Positions 25,396 to 37,706 of a stretch of DNA of 64,000 bases are shown here, in pieces. How positions within the stretch are numbered: position 1 is the first letter of the stretch; each line of letters starts with the position of its first letter. Under the pieces are notes generated by a model. The model was not told the origin of the DNA. It saw only the letters and a list, made by a program, of their open reading frames with translations, and made no database searches. This DNA comes from Longispora fulva (GTDB taxonomy: Bacteria; Actinomycetota; Actinomycetes; Mycobacteriales; Micromonosporaceae), in assembly GCF_015751905.1 (NCBI RefSeq), contig NZ_JADOUF010000001.1:868001-932000 (forward strand), given 5' to 3'. The translations under genes and the position numbers were made by a program.

Positions 25396-27819
25396 CTACG
25401 GCACCTGCACCAGGGTCCACTGCTGGTTGGCGCCGTTGTTCGACGTCCACTGCAGGACCTGTGCGCCGTCAGCCATGGAGCCCCCGGACACGTCGGCGAG
25501 CATCGAACTGTTGCGGTTCGTCAGCGTGGTGTAGCCGCCGCTCGTGGTGAGCGTCCACTGCTGGTTGGCGCCGCCGTTGGCCGTCCACTGGTTGAGCTGG
25601 GTGCCCGCCGTGGTGGAGAACCCGGGAACGTCCAGGACCTTGCCGCTGCCGACATTCGTGAGCACCGAGTACCCGCCGGTGGTGGCGATCCTCCACAGCT
25701 GCCCGGTCGCGCCAGTGTCGGTGGACTGGGTGATCAGCGCGCCGTCGGCCGCCGAGTTCCCGGTCACTGTGAGGGCCTTGCCACTGTTGCGGTTGATCAG
25801 CTTGTACTTCGGATCGGGCGTGGTCTGCCCGGGGGTGATCGCGAAGTTGTCGTACTGGGCGTTGATGTAGTCGCTCATCCCCAGCGCGACCTGCCCGGCG
25901 GAGTACGTGCCGTCCGTGACCGTGCCGACCGTGGTGCCGTCGACCTGGGCGGTGATCGTGGTGCCCTGGAAGCCCAGGGACAGCTTGTGCCACTGGTTGG
26001 TGCCCAGCGCCGTGGCCGTGCCGCTCTTCAGCGTCGTGAACGTCCAGCTGGAGTCGCTCTTCTGGATGGACCAGGCCCCGGTGTTGGAGACCCGCAGATG
26101 GTAGGCGTTGAGCCCGTTGTTGTTCTTGTTCTGCGCGCCGACCCTGCCGAGCAGCTCGACGCTACCGGCCTGTTCGAGCAGCACGTCGGAGCTGACGGTG
26201 TAGTTCGTCCAGTCCAGTTCACCCATCATCGTGTACGGGTAGAGGAACGGCTCGTCCGTCCACCGGATCGGGGCCTTGGGGGCCATCTGGCGGACACAGG
26301 TGCCGGTGCGGCCGGCCGCGCAGCCGAGGGTCTCGAAGGAGCCGTTCATGTCGGTGAAGTACTTCGGGGACCGGTTGTTGGTGTAGCCGTCGAAGGTGTC
26401 GGAGTAGGGCAGGTTCAGCGGCGCCCGCGCCGGGGACACCGCGGTGCCCTTGCCCTGGCCGGTGGTGGTGGTCAGGCTGTAGACGTAGCCGGGCTTGAGG
26501 GTGACGGTGTAGCCGCCGCCTGCCGGGGTCACGTCGGGCTGCCGCACGAAGTGGTCCGCGGCGACGTCCGAGCGCATGTTGGTCGCCCACACGTGCACCG
26601 CCCCGGTGGACAGGCCGCCGGCGATGGTGAACGTCGCGGTCTGGTCGGCGGTGGCGTCCATGGTCTCGACGACCGTGCTGTAGTCGGTGCCGTTGGGCGA
26701 TTTGAGGGCGACGTAGCTGCCGTTGGCGCGGTTGCCGCCGAGGTAGCCGGTGGCGGGGTCGATGTACTGCCAGCCGGGCTGGGCGAACTGGGCGGTGTGC
26801 GCCAGCGCCCACGTGGTCTTGCCGAGGCTGTAGGCCCCGGACCAGGGCTGGTCGGCCAGGGCCAGACCGTCGGTGGAGAAGTACAGGTTCTGGTACAGAG
26901 CCGCCACGATGGGCCAGTTGATGAACGCGGTCATCTTCCCGTCGATGTAGCCCCGGTTCACCCCGCGGGCGACGGCGGCGGCACCGGTGTTGTAGTCCTG
27001 CGAACCGCTCTCACTGGCCCACAGCGGCTTGCCCAGCCCGACGGCGTTGGCCGAGCTCGGGCAGTTGGTCTGGTTGCCGAGGTAGCCGCAGGCGTAGTGC
27101 GAGCCGACGACGTCCACGGCGTTGCGGAACGCGGTGTCCGACACCATGGCGTCCACGTCGCCGCCGAATCCGAAGTTGTCGTTGGCCACCACCTTGGTCG
27201 CCAACCCAGCCGTGGTCAGGCCGCTCTTGAGGTTGATGAACCACTGCTTGTCGTAGCCGCGTTCGTTCCAGCCGCCGATGTAGTCGATGGTCAGGTTGTG
27301 GTCGGACTTCGCGTGCTGGATCCACTTGACCAGGTAGCCGATCATGTCCTGGGACCAGAAGTTGCCGTTGCCGATCCAGCCCGGGGCTCCCCACGACAAC
27401 GCGACGAGCTTGATGTTGGGGTTACGCGCCTTGGCCTGTTCCATCAGCCACCACTCGTACCCGCGCTGGTAGTTCTCGTCGGTGGCGGAGTGCATGTGGC
27501 TGGGCTCGGCGCCGTCGGTGGAGTTGGTGTCCCCGCCGACCTCGACCTTCAGGATCGACAGGCTCGCGCCGTACCCGGGCTTGAACAGGTAGTCCAGGAT
27601 CTGCGAACGCTGCGGTTCCGGGTAGTCGAACAGCAGGCGCGAGTTACCGCCGCCGCCGCTGATCGCGCCCACGCCGTCGAACACCCGGCCGGCCGCCGTG
27701 CCGTTGATCGTGATCGACGTCGCGGCCTGCGCCGCCGTCGGGGCCCAGACGGCCGCCAGGGAGGTCACGAAGGCGAGCGCCACCAGCGCCGCCAGGGTGG
27801 GCCAATTTCGGAAATTCAT
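25396..27819 (-). CDS. Secreted GH59 galactosylceramidase-like beta-galactosidase with ricin-B lectin domain
   Basis: The 807-residue protein has a signal peptide (to about residue 32, TAAQAAT) and the GH59 hallmark RVFDGVGAISGGGGNSRLL and DGAEPSHMH. The acid/base Glu186 is in GGWNERGYD and the nucleophile Glu270 in LWASESG. A lectin-like beta sandwich follows, then a C-terminal ricin-B type trefoil with repeated QW motifs (GQLWRI, NQQWTL twice). Animal GH59 removes galactose from galactocerebroside; bacterial members act on beta-galactosides of plant or other glycans. It is exported and probably polymer-bound by the lectin. The ATG has GGAGAG upstream. The GH95 gene lies 37 nt upstream on the same strand. 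Confidence 0.88.
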   Translation of the reverse strand: MNFRNWPTLAALVALAFVTSLAAVWAPTAAQAATSITINGTAAGRVFDGVGAISGGGGNSRLLFDYPEPQRSQILDYLFKPGYGASLSILKVEVGGDTNSTDGAEPSHMHSATDENYQRGYEWWLMEQAKARNPNIKLVALSWGAPGWIGNGNFWSQDMIGYLVKWIQHAKSDHNLTIDYIGGWNERGYDKQWFINLKSGLTTAGLATKVVANDNFGFGGDVDAMVSDTAFRNAVDVVGSHYACGYLGNQTNCPSSANAVGLGKPLWASESGSQDYNTGAAAVARGVNRGYIDGKMTAFINWPIVAALYQNLYFSTDGLALADQPWSGAYSLGKTTWALAHTAQFAQPGWQYIDPATGYLGGNRANGSYVALKSPNGTDYSTVVETMDATADQTATFTIAGGLSTGAVHVWATNMRSDVAADHFVRQPDVTPAGGGYTVTLKPGYVYSLTTTTGQGKGTAVSPARAPLNLPYSDTFDGYTNNRSPKYFTDMNGSFETLGCAAGRTGTCVRQMAPKAPIRWTDEPFLYPYTMMGELDWTNYTVSSDVLLEQAGSVELLGRVGAQNKNNNGLNAYHLRVSNTGAWSIQKSDSSWTFTTLKSGTATALGTNQWHKLSLGFQGTTITAQVDGTTVGTVTDGTYSAGQVALGMSDYINAQYDNFAITPGQTTPDPKYKLINRNSGKALTVTGNSAADGALITQSTDTGATGQLWRIATTGGYSVLTNVGSGKVLDVPGFSTTAGTQLNQWTANGGANQQWTLTTSGGYTTLTNRNSSMLADVSGGSMADGAQVLQWTSNNGANQQWTLVQVP

Positions 27820-27856
27820 CGGGTTCTCTCCAGGGAAGGGGTGTGCCACGGGGGAG

Positions 27857-30691
27857 TTAGGCGGTGCCGATGTTGAGTTCGGCGACGGAGGTCCACGGAT
27901 TGCCGTTGACCTCGCTGAGCGCCCGCAGCCGCACGTACCGGCCGGTCTTGGCCGTGAAGGTCACCGTCTGTTCGGTGGTGTTGTTGGCGAACGTGCCGGT
28001 CTTCACGGCGGTGCCCCAGGTGGTGCCGTCGGTGGAGACGTAGACCTCGTAGTTGGCGATCCGGCCGTTGGCCTGGGACTGGCGGGGCAGGTAGTACAGG
28101 TTCGTGACGGAGTAGCTGGCTCCGAGGTCGATCTGGATCTCGTGCGGCATCTGTGCGACCGGGTTCGACCACTTCGTGTGCCAGAAGGTGGCCGGGCTAC
28201 CGTCGAGAACGTTCGTGCCCGGAGCGTTCTCGTTCGTGGTCTCCTGGCTGTCCACGTAACGGACGGACATCTGTGACTGCGGGATCCGGCCGCCAGTCGG
28301 GGCGGGGGTGACGGTGACGAACCCGCCCGGTTGCAGGTTGACCGCCTGGCTCCAGGTGCCGAACTTCACCGTGGTCGTGGAGCCGGTGGTGCTGTGGATG
28401 GTGGCGGTGGTGACCTTGCCGTTGAGCCAGGTGAGGTCGACGGTGAACCCGCCGCGCGCGCCGAGGCCGGTCGCGCTGCCGGCCGCCGCCCACGCGGTGG
28501 GGAGTGCCGGCAGGAGTTCGATCAGGCCGGCACGGCTGTAGAGCAGCATCTCGACCATGGCCGTGGGGGTGCCGAAGTTGGCGTCGATCTGGAAGATGGG
28601 GTTGCTGCCGCCGCCGTAGATGTCGAAGAAGTTCTGCGAGGTTCCGGGGCTGCCGTTGATCGACGGCTTCAAGTTGACCAGCAGCATCTGGTACGCCTTG
28701 GCGGAGTCCTTCAGTCGCGCCCAGCAGGCCGAGCGCCACGCGGTGGCCCAGCCGTAGCCGCCCTCGCCCCGGGCGGTGAGCAGGTTGCGTACCCCGGTGA
28801 GGAGCGCCGCGGGGCTCCCGTCGGCGGTGATCCGGTCGCCGGGGAACAGTCCGACGAGGGGGGACAGGTGCCGGTGCTGGGTCTCGCCGAGGTTGTCCGG
28901 CGACATCCACTCCTCGAGCCAGCCGGTGGTGGGGCTGACGACGGGCAGGTAGAGCTGGTTCTGCAGGCCGGTGACGGTCTGGGCGTAGCCGGCGTCGACG
29001 CCGAGCGCCGCGGCGGCCTTGCGGTAGGAGTCGAACAGGGCCCAGACGAGTTCCTGGGCGTAGGTGATGCCCTTGACGTAGGGGCCGTGTTCGGGGGACC
29101 AGTCGGTGTCGTCGATGAGGACCGTGGCCCCGTTGACGGTGGTGGTGATCAGGCGCGCCTCCCAGAACTGGACGGCGCCCTTCAACAACGGATAGATCTT
29201 GTTCAGGTACGCTGCGTCGCCGGTGTACTGGTAGTGCTCCCACAGGTTCATGCACAGCCAGGCGTTGCCGGCCGGGTGCCAGTCCCAGCCCATGCCGCCG
29301 TAGATGTTGGTCGAGATCGCCGTGGTCCAGCCGGCGATCTTTCCGTTGGAGTTGCGGTAGTGGTTGCGGGAGTCGTTGAACAGGTTCCTCGTCTGGGTGG
29401 TCCAGGACGACACCTGCGAGACGCAGTAGTCGGCGAGCGCGGTGAAGGTGGGGCCCAGGCCGGCGCGGTCGGCCAGCCAGTAGTTCATCTGCAGGTTGAT
29501 GTCGGTGTGGTAGTCGCCCATCCACGGCGGCGCGTTGTCGGACAGCCACAGGCCCTGCAGGTTGATCGGCACGCTGCCCCGCGAGGACGTGATCGCCAGG
29601 TACCGGCCGAACTGCAGGTAGCTGGCCTCCAGCTCGGGGTCGGCCGGCGCGCCGGACGCCGCGCGGGCCTGGAGCCGAGCCCAGGTGTCCTGGGACTTCT
29701 GGGCCGCCGACGACGTGCCGAGGTTGACGGTGGAGGTGTTGTAGAGGGCCTGGTAGTCGCCCGTGTGCGTGGCCAGCAGGGTCGTCCCGGCGATCCCCCG
29801 GGCGGCGGTCGCCTTCGACACGGCCACGGTCCTGGGGTCCACGGCCGGATTCTTGAACGCCTTCGACGCGTCGGGGGTGTAGTTCGTGCCCCCGGAGACG
29901 ATGATCACGACCTCGGTGCAGTTGGTGAAGGTGACCGTGGCGCCGCTGGTCGCGACGGTTCCGCCGGTGCCGGTCGCGGTGACCGCCGCGGCGTACTGGA
30001 GCCCGTTGCCGAGGGCGGCGGCGAACGAGGCCGTCTTCGCCGTGGCGTCGGCGGTGGTCGTCTCGCCGTGCGTGCCGTTGAGCGTGACCGAACCGGTGTA
30101 GGCCCCGCCGCCGCCCTGGGTCAGCCGGATCACGACGACGTCGTCGGGGTAGCTGGCGTACATCTCCCGGCGGTACGTCACACCCTGATACGTGTACGTC
30201 GTGGTGACGAAGCCGTTGCTGAGGTCCAGGGCACGCTGGTAGCCGCTGACCGCCGACGTGGTGTGCGCCGGCACCGCGACGTACACCTTGGCCAGCATCG
30301 TGAACGTGCCGAAGCTGGTCGCGTCGTACGGGAACTGGCCGCCGCCGTCGAGGCTGGCGTTCAGCCCGCCGGTCCACAGTGTCGAGTCGGTCAGGTACAG
30401 GCACTCCCGGGCCGGGTCGCCGCCCAGCAGTCCGCCGATCCGGCCGTTGCCCACCGGCAGTCCCTGCGTGATGATCGCCGACTCGGCGGCCGGGGTCGGA
30501 TACCACAGCCGGGTCGCCGACGCGTCCGGGACGAGGGACAGGGCCGCGGGCCGGGCGACCTGCGCCTGGGCCTCGAACGGCCGCAGGCCGCCGAGCACCG
30601 CGGCGACGCCGGCCGCGCCCGTGAACTTCAGCAGCGACCGGCGTGACGCCCCGGGGCCCGTGGGGCCGACGGGGTCGGGTGAGGGGGACAT
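27857..30691 (-). CDS. Secreted GH95 alpha-L-fucosidase with C-terminal F5/8-type (CBM32-like) domain
   Basis: The 944-residue protein starts with a Tat signal (SRRSLLKFTGAAG). It has the GH95 N-terminal domain (LWYPTPA, LPVGNGRIGG, DSTLWTGG) and catalytic helical barrel segments (GDYHTDINLQMNYW, DWSPEHGPYVKG, GWLEEWMSPDN, YGGGSNPIFQIDANFG). A discoidin-like module covers about the last 130 residues (SQETTNENAPGTNVLDGSP in part, ending VRLRALSEVNG). GH95 enzymes remove alpha-1,2-linked fucose or, in some members, alpha-L-galactose by inversion. It should act outside the cell on fucosylated plant or host glycans. AGGAGG precedes the ATG, and it is likely cotranscribed with GH59. Confidence 0.9.
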   Translation of the reverse strand: MSPSPDPVGPTGPGASRRSLLKFTGAAGVAAVLGGLRPFEAQAQVARPAALSLVPDASATRLWYPTPAAESAIITQGLPVGNGRIGGLLGGDPARECLYLTDSTLWTGGLNASLDGGGQFPYDATSFGTFTMLAKVYVAVPAHTTSAVSGYQRALDLSNGFVTTTYTYQGVTYRREMYASYPDDVVVIRLTQGGGGAYTGSVTLNGTHGETTTADATAKTASFAAALGNGLQYAAAVTATGTGGTVATSGATVTFTNCTEVVIIVSGGTNYTPDASKAFKNPAVDPRTVAVSKATAARGIAGTTLLATHTGDYQALYNTSTVNLGTSSAAQKSQDTWARLQARAASGAPADPELEASYLQFGRYLAITSSRGSVPINLQGLWLSDNAPPWMGDYHTDINLQMNYWLADRAGLGPTFTALADYCVSQVSSWTTQTRNLFNDSRNHYRNSNGKIAGWTTAISTNIYGGMGWDWHPAGNAWLCMNLWEHYQYTGDAAYLNKIYPLLKGAVQFWEARLITTTVNGATVLIDDTDWSPEHGPYVKGITYAQELVWALFDSYRKAAAALGVDAGYAQTVTGLQNQLYLPVVSPTTGWLEEWMSPDNLGETQHRHLSPLVGLFPGDRITADGSPAALLTGVRNLLTARGEGGYGWATAWRSACWARLKDSAKAYQMLLVNLKPSINGSPGTSQNFFDIYGGGSNPIFQIDANFGTPTAMVEMLLYSRAGLIELLPALPTAWAAAGSATGLGARGGFTVDLTWLNGKVTTATIHSTTGSTTTVKFGTWSQAVNLQPGGFVTVTPAPTGGRIPQSQMSVRYVDSQETTNENAPGTNVLDGSPATFWHTKWSNPVAQMPHEIQIDLGASYSVTNLYYLPRQSQANGRIANYEVYVSTDGTTWGTAVKTGTFANNTTEQTVTFTAKTGRYVRLRALSEVNGNPWTSVAELNIGTA

Positions 30692-31152: not shown

Positions 31153-32679
31153 TCACTTCGTGCCGAACATCTGCGTCCAGTAGTACCGGTAGGACCCGCC
31201 GGTCGCCCGGCCGACGCCCATCGCCGTGGACGCGCAGTTGAGAATGTTCGCCCGGTGCCCCGGCGAGTTCATCCACTGGTCCATCGTGCCCTTCGCCGTG
31301 GCGTTGCCCGCCGCGATGTTCTCCGCCGAGGGCGTCGGGTACCCGGCGGCCTTGGCCCGGTCCCACGGCGTCACACCATCGGGGGTGTTGTGCGCGAAGT
31401 AGCCGCGGGCCACCATGTCCGCGCTGTGGTCGGCGGCGGCCTTGGCGAGTCTCGTGTCGTACCGCACCGGTTGGCAGCCGGCCTCGGCGCGGCGTTGGTT
31501 GACCAGGGCGAGGACCTGCGCCTCCAGATCGCTGACGCCCGGCGGCCGGGTCGCGGCGACCGTCGGCGGCGCCTTCGTCGGCGACGGTGCGGGCGTCGGG
31601 CTGGCCATCGGGGTGGGGGAGGGGCCCGGTGCCGGGCTGACACTGGGGTTCGCCTCGGCCTCGGGCACCGGCACCGCACCGGCCTGCGACATAGCGTCCG
31701 TCCGGGGGCCGCCGGCGTTCAGCGCGTACGCCAGACCGCCGCCCACCAGCGCGAGCGCCGTCAGCGCGGCGACGCCGACCAGGAGCGCGCGGCCGGCCCG
31801 CCCGCGCCCGGCGGCCGGCCAACGGTCGGGAGCGGTGTCCGGCCACGGGCCCGGGGCGGTGCCAGGGGTCGTGCCCGCCCAGCCGGGTCGCTCCGCCCCG
31901 CCTGGGCCGATGTCCCCGGCGGCCCAGGCGGCCCCGGTGTCCGCGGCGGCATACAGCGCGGCGAGTATGTTCATCGACCGGACCCCGGCGCTGAGCGCGT
32001 GACACTCCGGACAACGGTCCACGTGCCGCCTGACGGCCACGGCCAGCGGCACGATCCGCACCCGACGGCGGTGCACCACGGCGTCCAGCGCCGGACAGCG
32101 CTCCGCGAGCCGGCCGAGGAGCCCCACCCACAACGCACTGCTGTACGCCCGATGGGCCTCGCGGGTGAGTGCCGTCGCCCGTCTGCGGCCGACGCCCAGG
32201 ACCTCGCCGATGTCCGCGGCGGACAGCCTCCAGACTGCGGCGAGTTCCAGCACGGTCCGATGGTGGGGCGCGAGCCCGCGCAGCGCCGACCAGGCGAGCG
32301 AGAGCGCCTGCCGTTGCTCGGCCACACCTTCCGGACCGGCCCCCGGAACGCCGCCCGGGACGGACCGCAGAACGTGGTCCGGCGGTCGGGGCATCGCGAA
32401 GTCCAGCGGGAGGCCCGCGCGGCGGGCCGGGTCGAGGGCCCGGCGGTGGACGTCGCCCAGGAGCCACGCCATCACGGCGGACGGCAGGGGGAAATGTGCG
32501 GCCCTTTCCTGCCACGCTTGGCGGAACGTCTCGCGGACGATGTCGTCGGCGAGGCGCCGGTCTCCGGTCAGGCGGTGGACGAAGCCCACCATCGCCGGGT
32601 GGTGCCGGGTGTGGAGTTCCTCGAAGGCTGTCCGGTCCCCGGAGGACGCGGCGGCGGCCAGTGACGCGTCGGTCTGCAT
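31153..32679 (-). CDS. ECF sigma factor fused to zinc-knuckle, transmembrane helix and extracellular CAP domain
   Basis: The 508-residue protein joins parts usually found in separate proteins. Residues 15-80 are sigma region 2 (FEELHTRHHPAMVGFVHRL, DDIVRETFRQAW). Residues 125-180 are region 4 (LRGLAPHHRTVLELAA, SAADIGEVLGVGRRRATALT). Residues 205-230 carry the anti-sigma zinc pattern His219-x3-Cys223-x2-Cys226. A hydrophobic helix spans about 297-320, followed by a Pro/Ser/Thr stalk (335-380). Residues 384-508 form an SCP/CAP domain with His418, His430, SAENIAAG (Glu453) and NSPGHRANIL (His475). It would place a sigma factor at the membrane with an outside domain, suggesting regulated release or contact-dependent signalling (inference). 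The frame is continuous with an even codon pattern, and the ATG has GAGAGG upstream. Confidence 0.85.
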   Translation of the reverse strand: MQTDASLAAAASSGDRTAFEELHTRHHPAMVGFVHRLTGDRRLADDIVRETFRQAWQERAAHFPLPSAVMAWLLGDVHRRALDPARRAGLPLDFAMPRPPDHVLRSVPGGVPGAGPEGVAEQRQALSLAWSALRGLAPHHRTVLELAAVWRLSAADIGEVLGVGRRRATALTREAHRAYSSALWVGLLGRLAERCPALDAVVHRRRVRIVPLAVAVRRHVDRCPECHALSAGVRSMNILAALYAAADTGAAWAAGDIGPGGAERPGWAGTTPGTAPGPWPDTAPDRWPAAGRGRAGRALLVGVAALTALALVGGGLAYALNAGGPRTDAMSQAGAVPVPEAEANPSVSPAPGPSPTPMASPTPAPSPTKAPPTVAATRPPGVSDLEAQVLALVNQRRAEAGCQPVRYDTRLAKAAADHSADMVARGYFAHNTPDGVTPWDRAKAAGYPTPSAENIAAGNATAKGTMDQWMNSPGHRANILNCASTAMGVGRATGGSYRYYWTQMFGTK

Positions 32680-32785
32680 CTGGTACCTCTCGGCTCGTGC
32701 GGCCCGCCGAACACTACGTTCGGGGCGGGCCGCGGTGGCCTGGTCCAGCGCGGATTTAGGTACCAGCTAAGGAAGACTTGAGGTA

Positions 32786-32820: not shown

Positions 32821-34464
32821 TCAGAACTGCAGCGACCACACGTCGATCTTGCCGACGTCGTTGCTCGCCACGTCCTGGACCCGCAGCTTCCAGACCCCGT
32901 TCGCCGCGGCGGGCACCGTGGCCGAGTAGGTCTTGAGCACGTCGTCGGCCGAGTCGTTGTTCGGGAAGTCCTCCAGCACGACCACGGTGCCGTCCGGCTT
33001 GACCAGGCTGATCACCAGGTCGCCGCGGTAGGTGTGCTTGATGTCCACGTTCACCGACACCGACGTCGCGCCGGTGACCCCGGAGACCGTGATGGGGCTC
33101 TCCACCGTCGTGTTGTCGCTGATCGTCACGTCCGTGGTGTTCTCGAACCGCGGCCCGGGAGCGGTCCCGCAGTACTGCTGCTGCTTGCCGATCGCCCGGT
33201 AGGGGCAGTCGGCGTACTCGGCCAGCTTCAGCACCGCCTCCTTGTTCCGGGAGGTCTGCGCGGGGATCACCTCGTCGGGCGGGTAGAAGCCGCCGCCGCC
33301 GGAGGACGGGTACATCTCGAAGGTGTACGCGAAGATCTTCTGGTCGGCCCACAGCCAGTCGATGACGATCCCGTCGGCGATGTAGAGGTCACTGGCCTGC
33401 TCGGGCGTGTAGTTGTTCGTCGACGCCATCTGCTGGCCGATCGTGGCGAACGTGCTCCGCTGGTCGGGGTTCATCACCCCGTCGGTGTCGGCGGTCTGGT
33501 AGCCGTAGGGCCACAGCACCAGCTCGGAGTACGTGTGGAAGTCGATGGCGACCGAGATCTGCTGCTTTCCGCCGACCACCCGGGTCTTCACCCAGTCGGC
33601 GTACTTCTTCGTCTCCGGGGCGGAGAACGCCGACGGTCCGCGGTAGGTCTCGCTGGAGGTGCTGCTGGACGAGCCGCCGCAGCAGCCCCACTTGTACGGC
33701 CAGTTGCGGTTGAGGTCCGTGCCCACGTTCGACGAACCGGCGTTGGGCTGACGGTTCTTCCGCCAGGACCGGTAGGCGCCGGTGGCGATGTCGTACTCGC
33801 CGCCGTCGGGGTTCACGTCCGGCATGATCCAGAACTCGCGGCTGTTCACCAGGTCGGTGATCCGGGGGTCGGTGCCGTAGTTGTCGGCCAGCAGGTGCAT
33901 CAGGTAGATGGCCATCTCGACGGTCAGGTGCTCGCGGGCGTGCTGGTGGGCGTTGAAGAGGATCTCCGGCTCGTCCTCGTCCACGTCCACGTTGTCGGAG
34001 ATCTTGACCAGGATCAGGTCACGGCCCTCGTAGGAGGTGCCGTAGCTGAGCTTCTTGAAGATCGCGGGCTTGGCCGCCGCGAGATTGTTCACCTCCGTGG
34101 TCAGTTCGGCGTAGTCGTGGTAGTTGGAGTCGGCGGGCGGGAAGCCGGCCAGCCCGGGGGCGATCTCCTCGGCCTGGGGCGCCTTCTCGACGGTGAAGCC
34201 GAGCCGGCTGATCGCGGCGATCTCGGTTCGGGTCGCGGTGACGTAGACCCGGCCGTGCTCGACGTTGTCGACGGACGCGCCGGTCCGGGCGATCGCGTTC
34301 ACGTCGGCGTTGGTCTTCGGGCCGGTCAGCACGTACTCGGCGGAGGGGTTGTCGTCGGACTGGCGAAGCGGATCCGCACCGGCGGGGTTCGCCATGGCCA
34401 GGCCGAGGACGAGGACGACGCTCGCCAGGAGCCAACGGGCCCGGCGGAGGAAGAGGGGTTTCAT
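32821..34464 (-). CDS. Secreted zinc carboxypeptidase (M14) with P-domain
   Basis: The 547-residue protein has a signal peptide (about 1-30), a propeptide (about 40-105, [17 protein letters not shown]...[13 protein letters not shown]) and an M14 catalytic domain. The zinc ligands are His175 and Glu178 (HAREH) and His310 (IDFHTYSEL), and the catalytic Glu383 is in [16 protein letters not shown] and NRNWPYKWG are typical of carboxypeptidase T-like enzymes. The last 110 residues form a proprotein-convertase P-like beta domain ([15 protein letters not shown]). It should remove C-terminal residues from peptides outside the cell. The ATG at 34464 begins a typical basic-hydrophobic signal sequence. 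Confidence 0.92.
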
Positions 34465-36017: not shown

Positions 36018-37706
36018 ATGAGACGCAGAGTCACCCGCCTCGTCGTCGCCATCGGCCTGATGTCGATGGTGATGACCGCGGTGCCGGCCTCGGCCGCACC
36101 GGTCTACCAGCCAGTGATCGCCGCCCCCTCGGTCACCGCCGCCAACGGCGCCAACCTGGCCCCCACCCCTCCCATGGGCTTCAACAACTGGGCCCGCTAC
36201 ACGTGCAACCTCAACGAGGCGCTGTTCGTCGCCACCGCCGACCGGCTGGTCTCCAGCGGGCTGGCGGCCAACGGATACCGCACCATCACCGTCGACGACT
36301 GCTGGATGACCGGAAGCCGTGACGCCGCGGGCAATCTGGTGACCAACAGTTCCCGGTTCCCGCACGGGATGAAGTGGCTGGCCGACTACGTCCACGGCAA
36401 GGGCCTGCAGTTCGGCATCTACGAGGACGCCGGCACATCCACCTGTGTGGGGCTGCCGGCAAGCTGGGGACACGAGCAGGCCGACGCGAACCTGTTCGCC
36501 TCGTTCGGCGTCGACTACGTCAAGCTCGACGGCTGCAACGTGCCGCCGGAGCCGGGCAAAACCCAGGAACAGACCTACCATGACGTCTACGCCAAGTGGA
36601 GTCAGGCGCTGGCCAACACCGGCCGCCGAATGGTGTTCTCCGAGTCGGCACCCGCCTACTTCTACATCGGAGTGTCCGACAAGCGCGACTGGTACAAGGT
36701 GCTGGAATGGACCCCGCAGTACGGCCAGCTGTGGCGGGAGGGCGACGACATGGGCCTCGCCGAGTACAGCGCGGCGACCCAGTGGAGCACCATCGTGCGC
36801 AACTACGACTACAACCTGCCGCTGGCCCGGTTCGCGGGACCGAACGCCTGGAACGATCCCGACTTCCTGATCCCCGGCTCGGGCATCACCCCGGACGAGG
36901 CCCGCAGCCAGATGAGCCTGTGGTCGATGATGGCCGCACCACTGATCCTGAGCACGGACGTGACCGCCCTCGGCGCCGCGGAGCTGGCCATCGTGGGCAA
37001 CCCCGACGTGGTCGCCGTCGACCAGGACCCGCTCGGCGCGCAGGGGACGCTGGTCTCCCGCAACGGCAACACCGACATCCTCGCCCGGCAGCTGGCCAAC
37101 GGCGACAGGGCGGTGGCGTTGTTCAACCGCGGCGGAAGTTCCGCGACCATCTCCACCACCACCGCGACCGTCGGACTACCCGGCGGCACCGGATGCACCT
37201 ACGCGGTCAAGGACCTGTGGACCGGGCAGAGCAGCTCAGGCACCACGATCTCGGCCACCGTGCCCGCCCACGGTACCGCGATGTTCCGCGTCACCCCCGG
37301 CGCGACCTGCGCCGGCGCTCAGCCGACCGGCCAGATCACGGTCACCTCGGGCAAGTGCCTCGATGACACGGCGAGTGGCACCACCGACGGCACGCCGATC
37401 ACCCTGTACACCTGCCATGGCGGAGCCAACCAGCGCTTCACGTTCCCCGGCGACGGCACTGCGCGCACGCTCGGCAAGTGCCTGACCGCGGCGGGCACCA
37501 CCGACGGCGCCGCCATCACCCTGTCCACCTGCACCGGCAGCGCCACACAGTCGTGGTCGTACCGGCGCAACGGGAACCTCGTCAACGCCGCGTCCAACAA
37601 ATGCCTGGACGTCTACGGCGGGGCGACCACCACTGACGGTGCCCGCCTGGCGGTCTGGGTCTGCGGCTACAACCAGCACAACCAGACCTGGTCCCTGCCC
37701 TCCTGA
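36018..37706 (+). CDS. Secreted GH27 alpha-galactosidase with ricin-B lectin domain
   Basis: The 562-residue protein has a signal peptide (to about 27, ASAAP), a GH27 barrel with TPPMGFNNW, DDCWM, the nucleophile Asp171 in YVKLDGCN and the acid/base Asp244 in WREGDDM, then a C-terminal beta domain and a ricin-B type lectin module (about 435-562, GKCLDD, NQRFTF, NKCLDVYGG). It should release terminal alpha-galactose from galactomannan or oligosaccharides outside the cell. AGGAG lies upstream of the ATG. A palindromic operator covers its promoter, and a ROK regulator gene follows after two terminator hairpins. Confidence 0.93.
   Translation: MRRRVTRLVVAIGLMSMVMTAVPASAAPVYQPVIAAPSVTAANGANLAPTPPMGFNNWARYTCNLNEALFVATADRLVSSGLAANGYRTITVDDCWMTGSRDAAGNLVTNSSRFPHGMKWLADYVHGKGLQFGIYEDAGTSTCVGLPASWGHEQADANLFASFGVDYVKLDGCNVPPEPGKTQEQTYHDVYAKWSQALANTGRRMVFSESAPAYFYIGVSDKRDWYKVLEWTPQYGQLWREGDDMGLAEYSAATQWSTIVRNYDYNLPLARFAGPNAWNDPDFLIPGSGITPDEARSQMSLWSMMAAPLILSTDVTALGAAELAIVGNPDVVAVDQDPLGAQGTLVSRNGNTDILARQLANGDRAVALFNRGGSSATISTTTATVGLPGGTGCTYAVKDLWTGQSSSGTTISATVPAHGTAMFRVTPGATCAGAQPTGQITVTSGKCLDDTASGTTDGTPITLYTCHGGANQRFTFPGDGTARTLGKCLTAAGTTDGAAITLSTCTGSATQSWSYRRNGNLVNAASNKCLDVYGGATTTDGARLAVWVCGYNQHNQTWSLPS

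Follow-up and report, generated by a model that had tools for sequence, protein, structure and literature searches.

The window, that is, the whole 64-kb stretch of the Longispora fulva genome analysed here, carries at positions 31153-32679 of the minus strand a single open reading frame that starts with ATG, has a GAGAGG ribosome site 5' of this start and runs through 508 residues without an internal stop. Its product joins an ECF sigma factor, a zinc knuckle, a membrane helix and a CAP domain in one chain. The first-pass annotation had read the chain as sigma regions 2 and 4 followed by these parts, and Pfam and hydropathy agree with it. All parts given below lie on the minus strand. Sigma region 2 (residues 1-90, 32410-32679) matches PF04542 at residues 23-88 and passes the cut-off (E 1.3e-6, 28.5 bits). 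Region 4 (residues 121-185, 32125-32319) matches PF04545 at residues 132-175 (E 0.0016, 18.3 bits), which misses the cut-off of 24.1, and has a fold match to 3hug. In the zinc-binding anti-sigma-like (ZAS) domain (residues 186-235, 31975-32124), the HxxxCxxC motif is found exactly where it had been placed, at residues 219-226 (32002-32025), and C195 is a fourth invariant candidate zinc ligand beyond it. The four putative ligands C195, H219, C223 and C226 are invariant across the copies of the family, the window copy included, and PF13490 was matched below its cut-off only, in five of six relatives scanned.

The membrane helix (residues 299-317, 31729-31785, hydropathy 2.22), earlier put at about 297-320, is the most hydrophobic 19-residue stretch of the protein and has an Arg before it, with basic residues on the sigma side. 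Hydrophobicity is also raised, less strongly, just C-terminal to the knuckle (about residues 228-246), and the structure model has a helix at 295-321 with low confidence there. Outside the membrane comes a Pro/Ser/Thr/Ala-rich stalk (about residues 323-384, 31528-31713), a linker that measures 52-83 residues in all 13 copies measured and 73 in the window copy. The chain ends in the CAP (SCP) domain (residues 385-508, 31156-31527), which matches PF00188 at residues 390-505 (E 8.8e-30) and, under its cut-off, TIGR02909, the bacterial YkwD type. The conserved His and Glu residues noticed in the first pass are H418, H430, E453 and H475, all of them invariant in 12 other copies; some of these presumably form the CAP cleft.

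Sequence searches of the PDB led from the C-terminal part to the SCP-domain protein 4ifa, which is also a fold match, and from the N-terminal part to ECF sigma factors (CnrH, SigE, SigK, SigL and others). With its CAP fold and conserved His/Glu residues the protein belongs to the CAP superfamily, and with regions 2 and 4 and without regions 1 and 3 it has the general ECF sigma layout. By its sequence it also falls among ECF factors with a fused ZAS and membrane extension, the kind of ECF48, ECF52 and ECF53, with zinc binding predicted. ECF52 is characterised by an outside carbohydrate-binding module; the window protein shares the Pro-rich stretch and carries CAP outside instead.

An M14 carboxypeptidase with a proprotein-convertase P-domain (32821-34464, minus strand) lies directly upstream of the window gene, 141 bases away; it is not conserved as a neighbour of the sigma-CAP fusion. 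Downstream is a GH95-type glycosidase (27857-30691, minus strand) with an F5/8 domain and a weak TAT-signal match, and other frames nearby (25396-27849 and 36018-37706) look like secreted enzymes by eye. Between 30600 and 34600, neither a sigma-70 promoter nor a terminator was found by scanning. No gene family was shared across genera in the fusion flanks examined, two of which (L002 and L042) were short, and thus no separate anti-sigma gene is implied.

The genome of L. fulva contains a second full-length copy (G000:C1:3781172-3782596), which is 55% identical to the window protein by search, and the CAP domains of the two paralogues are 81% identical. A contig scan with the window protein alone as the query returned no relatives. 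The scan with a five-copy alignment and two peptide patterns gave 108 relatives, of which 80 were kept, and among these were 11 full-length fusions. The search of other actinomycetes that the first pass had proposed placed the same architecture in 11 named genomes from Longispora, Catellatospora, Catelliglobosispora and Hamadaea: eight of Catellatospora, one Hamadaea MAG, Catelliglobosispora koreensis and Longispora albida, whose frames were read. In the family sample of 101 genomes, the CAP type was present in at least 10 genomes and in four of 44 genera. This sample added two further copies (L166 and L173), giving 15 distinct copies with that of the window; the copy of genome G117 has the same contig position as L042 of Hamadaea. 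Only L. fulva, among the two Longispora genomes of the genus sample, has a second copy.

Could two genes have been read as one by assembly or gene calling? We give this virtually no credence. A full-length paralogue in the same genome and the copies in 11 named genomes argue against it, 13 copies drawn from 12 genomes share one fusion point, and no homologue split between residues 230 and 290, or elsewhere, was seen among the copies found. An artefact was therefore rejected on the 13 full-length copies compared, and nothing was found in its favour. The sigma-CAP fusion is, judged by these copies, real and old.

The cytoplasmic layout is much more widespread than the CAP domain. We read 19 other sigma-knuckle loci in the family sample; in 18 of them a hydrophobic helix comes after the knuckle, and CAP is absent from all 19. 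The usual C-terminal end is a short domain with Cys, Ig-like by eye, and these ends gave no Pfam family above cut-off in the eight chains scanned. A sample of the class, 197 genomes, yielded 18 new loci. Of the 14 that we read, 13 had knuckle and helix with varied outside parts, and none had a CAP-like one. One-chain sigma-knuckle-helix proteins occur across the Actinomycetes (L174-L191, L193 but not L177, L194-L205 and L208). At one of these loci (L195, G172:C1:4896826 and 4898512), the starts of two matches of the sigma-knuckle type are less than 2 kb apart on one strand; the pair belongs to another family of the order, and only its first match was read. These sister chains of Micromonosporaceae and other Actinomycetes share with the CAP fusions the cytoplasmic layout and the stalk. 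They differ in carrying outside the Ig-like Cys domain, another domain or a bare Pro-rich tail where the fusions carry CAP, and they form a separate side of the sigma-knuckle tree. Given how often sister chains bear other outside domains, the sigma-knuckle-helix layout is probably the common state, to which one lineage added CAP once. The variety of the outside domains suggests a plug-in sensor family in the Actinomycetes.

The trees speak for the two halves of the fusion having stayed together. In the sigma-knuckle tree, the 14 CAP-type rows stand on one side of a branch (100/100) and the 17 rows of the other type on the other. The window row was flagged for its long branch (1.38 vs 0.14 for the paralogue), which leaves its exact place unsure. 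For the CAP tree, 31 stand-alone loci were tried; 10 failed to parse, leaving 21. Here 13 fused CAP domains and one long-branch stray, a myxobacterial stand-alone row (L062), form a set at 97/93, and 20 of the 21 stand-alone domains lie apart from the fused ones. The fused CAP domains are not a strict clade; two changes are needed, and one suffices in only 2% of bootstrap trees.

The first-pass annotation missed that, as the alignment indicates, the window copy is a duplicate that diverges fast and has lost many family-invariant sigma residues, and that its upstream region lacks the GTAAT box of the family. The 12 other copies share 145 invariant columns, of which the window copy changes 33. 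These changes are concentrated in the sigma half: 14 of 35 invariant columns in region 2 and 16 of 36 in region 4, several of them in the final HTH helix. The knuckle domain has two of nine changed, with all four putative ligands kept, the linker, helix and stalk none of seven, and CAP one of 58. The difference between sigma (30 of 74 columns broken, residues 1-185) and CAP (1 of 58) is significant (Fisher p 2e-8), and when each other copy was left out in turn, it had at most three breaks in either sigma region. Pfam scores point in the same direction. For region 2 the window copy reaches 28.5 bits, compared to 47.5-53.4 in the six relatives scanned, and for the region 4 model PF08281 12.0 bits, compared to 22.4-25.7. 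All six relatives pass the region 2 cut-off, and two (L002 and L047) pass that of a region 4 model.

This divergence belongs to the window copy and not to its paralogue. With L. albida (L047) as the outgroup, residues 1-235 have 80 changes unique to the window copy vs 12 unique to the paralogue, and CAP has nine vs eight; the contrast between the N-terminal part and CAP is significant (Fisher p 0.003). When L041 was used as the outgroup, the counts were 62:10 and 11:5; this contrast was not significant (Fisher p 0.14), although the excess in the N-terminal part itself was. On the window-copy branch, omega was 0.71 (0.48-1.07) for residues 1-235 and 0.21 (0.09-0.40) for CAP; on the paralogue branch it was 0.30 (0.11-0.97) for residues 1-235. 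The window copy is derived, and the duplication behind it apparently took place within the Longispora lineage; the substitution pattern supports a sigma part that has been relaxed or redirected. From the omega interval of 0.48-1.07 and the intact frame, full decay of the sigma half is not proven. The GC3 of 0.89 and GC2 of 0.56 in residues 1-175 indicate an intact coding structure, in a check by which alone decay and change look the same.

The AlphaFold2 models reflect this difference. For the L. albida protein, pLDDT is 81-93 in residues 1-80, and its model matches CnrH (4cxf; Z 14.3, rmsd 9.9, 145 aligned) and region 2 of sigmaE (4lup; Z 14.1, rmsd 3.4, 89 aligned). The window model, which was built from the same 12 sequences, has low confidence over residues 60-112, with blocks of 39-44 at residues 61-110; the L. 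albida model is also low at 81-110, so that the two part at residues 61-80 (about 39 vs 83-85). The best rows of the window model are CAP folds and region 4. It matches the RslA-SigL region 4 complex (3hug; Z 8.8, rmsd 2.2, 80 aligned), 4ifa (Z 11.3, rmsd 2.6, 98 aligned) and GAPR-1 (1smb; Z 10.2, rmsd 2.5, 99 aligned), the last two with its CAP domain, and a whole sigma factor (5wur) only at Z 7.0 (rmsd 5.6, 116 aligned). Foldseek gave no PDB match at E of 0.001 or better for the window model, the best being an ECF sigma chain at 1.2e-3, compared to 20 such matches for the L. albida model. In both models the pTM is low (0.34 and 0.35), as is the confidence between domains, and neither shows the knuckle docked on the sigma regions.

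A redirected sigma half might still be a working one. The window copy could be a neofunctionalised sigma factor with a new promoter specificity and a new target set, free of decay, which we hold possible but not probable. The intact frame with its GC3 and GC2 values would agree with this, as would an omega of 0.71, which is not clearly 1. Core residues such as W56, W72, P138 and G162 are kept, and the stretch 58-78 of region 2, the recognition helix of region 4 and the promoter box have all changed together. However, I76D and L53R bring charge to positions that are hydrophobic in the 12 other copies. The scores of both sigma regions, far under those of the relatives, and the loss of model confidence at residues 61-80 also speak against a working factor.

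Upstream of the gene the family has a two-box element, GTAAT-N18/19-ACNTA, which is present before all 14 distinct non-window copies. The spacer is N18 in 12 of them (ten named loci, the paralogue and L166) and N19 in the two Hamadaea copies (L042 and L173). In an alignment of ten upstream regions, GTAAT and ACNTA are kept in the nine non-window rows and the spacer varies between lineages. The window copy retains ACGTA, a remnant of the downstream (-10-like) box, at 32715-32719 on the minus strand, and has CAGGC at the site of the GTAAT (-35-like) box (32738-32742, minus strand); the two-box pattern has no match in the 64-kb window. The element is absent from the 200 bases before the starts, picked by script, of all 19 non-CAP relatives checked, a count that leaves out L172, a duplicate of L042.

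The recurrence of the element before the CAP-fusion gene is not chance, and across all genomes searched the upstream region of that gene is the sole place where it recurs. GTAAT-N18-ACNTA was sought in 25 genomes, and eight had a match. With N17-19, 12 genomes of 6.8-9.6 Mb each gave 53 matches (3 to 12 per genome), of which 12 were those of the family gene itself, compared to 37 for the reversed control. No regulon follows from these counts. A match just before an ECF-like frame (by eye) of L. fulva (C1:4913072, L132 1501-1528) has only 7 bases to the ATG and was treated as chance. In Catellatospora, a second conserved match, a GTAAT...CACGTGA or CACATGA...ACATA stretch, was seen before a gene that looks transporter-like by eye (L138, L139, L142 and L163, near 1501). 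The natural reading is that the element may be an autoregulated promoter of the ECF type; against this, the usual ECF box spacing is somewhat shorter than 18-19.

We know of no agreed general function for the CAP domain. It could be a working wall-associated effector, and the fused sigma factor would then only tune the supply of the protein itself, with nothing sensed outside; we consider this unlikely. With 58 invariant columns among its 124 residues, CAP is better conserved than any other part of the family, and the confinement of the two-box element to the fusion gene would suit such a loop. Stand-alone bacterial CAP proteins have also been tied to envelope traits: a YkwD gene is among the high-lipid mutants of Rhodobacter in a table of PMC5442454, and a passage of PMC11784157 links the CAP protein BB0689 of Borrelia to osmotic resistance. 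However, the unrelated outside domains on the sister chains fit interchangeable sensors better, and the known fused member, SCO4117 of Streptomyces coelicolor, affects many genes according to a passage of PMC5826349.

On balance we lean towards a family of single-chain transmembrane CAP-ECF switches, of which the window copy would be a derived duplicate whose sigma part was either relaxed or redirected. In the family, the zinc knuckle domain would hold back sigma regions 2 and 4 at the membrane in an inactive state, and the CAP end, on its Pro-rich stalk in the cell wall, would sense or gate a wall or lipid event. A cut by a site-1 protease and then one by an M50 protease would set the sigma part free, which may transcribe its own gene from the GTAAT-N18-ACNTA promoter together with some other targets. 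We infer both the role of CAP as a sensor and the proteolysis that frees the sigma part. Such a one-protein mechanism, proposed in the first pass, is plausible by analogy with SCO4117, with IutY and with the outside receptor of RsiV. The first pass was right about the arrangement of sigma factor, knuckle, tether and outside domain in one chain, which is kept as a fusion; the layout is not without precedent, since ECF48, ECF52 and ECF53 share it and SCO4117 has been studied (passages of PMC5826349 and PMC8999054). M50 protease genes are present in the L. fulva genome as in all 14 control genomes, and their presence is therefore permissive only. For the CAP-fusion family, we found no signal, no protease site and no regulon.

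In the window copy, selection would guard the surface CAP domain, the membrane anchor and the zinc ligands and be relaxed or redirected on the sigma part and its promoter. Because of this pattern, we suggest that the copy is probably a poor or altered sigma factor and is now mainly a membrane-held CAP protein. There is a slim chance that it acts as a decoy: CAP would be the surface receptor that drives the one-protein switch, and the window copy, keeping this receptor, the anchor and the zinc ligands with its sigma function lost, would damp the paralogue by competing with it for either the signal or the protease that frees the sigma part. Under the switch that we favour, the paralogue at G000:C1:3781172-3782596 is a better test case than the window copy, whose sigma half has diverged and whose upstream region lacks the GTAAT box. 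The L. fulva pair, in which one sigma half is preserved and the other is not, would make a natural experiment on the purpose of the fused sigma factor. A bacterial CAP domain that shares a polypeptide with a transcription factor could also report directly on what CAP binds.

The known kind to which the family belongs is that of the single-chain membrane ECF sigma factors, and CAP as the outside domain is the difference. To our knowledge, one such chain, IutY of Pseudomonas putida (ECF243), has no CAP domain. RsiV and SigV of Bacillus subtilis are two proteins, in contrast to the one chain of the CAP fusions, and the outside fold of RsiV differs from CAP. IutY resembles the fusions in having the sigma factor and the membrane anti-sigma part in one chain, and its release by Prc and RseP has, according to the review, been characterised experimentally; it differs in serving Gram-negative cell-surface signalling in iron starvation and in having no zinc knuckle (passages of PMC8999054). 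In RsiV, the outside part of the anti-sigma factor is a direct receptor of lysozyme that triggers activation, as a passage of PMC4183432 describes.

The stand-alone membrane or secreted CAP proteins of the YkwD type have the same bacterial type of CAP, with neither a sigma nor a zinc part. CAP domains occur in all kingdoms, and their precise mode of action is called elusive in a passage of PMC8857485. Searches with CAP and sigma terms returned no report of a sigma-CAP fusion from the passages of open-licence literature that they covered, and the fusion is not described in the passages concerned of PMC5442454, PMC4541274, PMC11784157, PMC5826349 and PMC9205884.

Closest in layout are ECF48, ECF52 and ECF53, which have zinc-finger, membrane-spanning C-terminal extensions and for which proteolytic release is expected (a passage of PMC8999054). 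Likened by description, ECF48 and ECF53 join the sigma factor to a C-terminal zinc-finger membrane part resembling an anti-sigma factor, as the CAP fusions do, and the same passage of PMC8999054 does not mention CAP for them. SCO4117, a member of ECF52, is also actinobacterial and has the same order of sigma factor, zinc finger, membrane region, Pro-rich stretch and outside domain. Its proteolytic release was proposed earlier, and a strain with the sigma-only form showed activated expression of the SCO4117 gene; putative autoregulation is a further likeness (passages of PMC5826349). The descriptions in PMC5826349, seen as passages, set the two apart in the outside domain, a carbohydrate-binding module in SCO4117 and CAP in the window family, and in the putative motif, CSGYN-17-SRHA for SCO4117 and GTAAT-N18-ACNTA for the CAP fusions.
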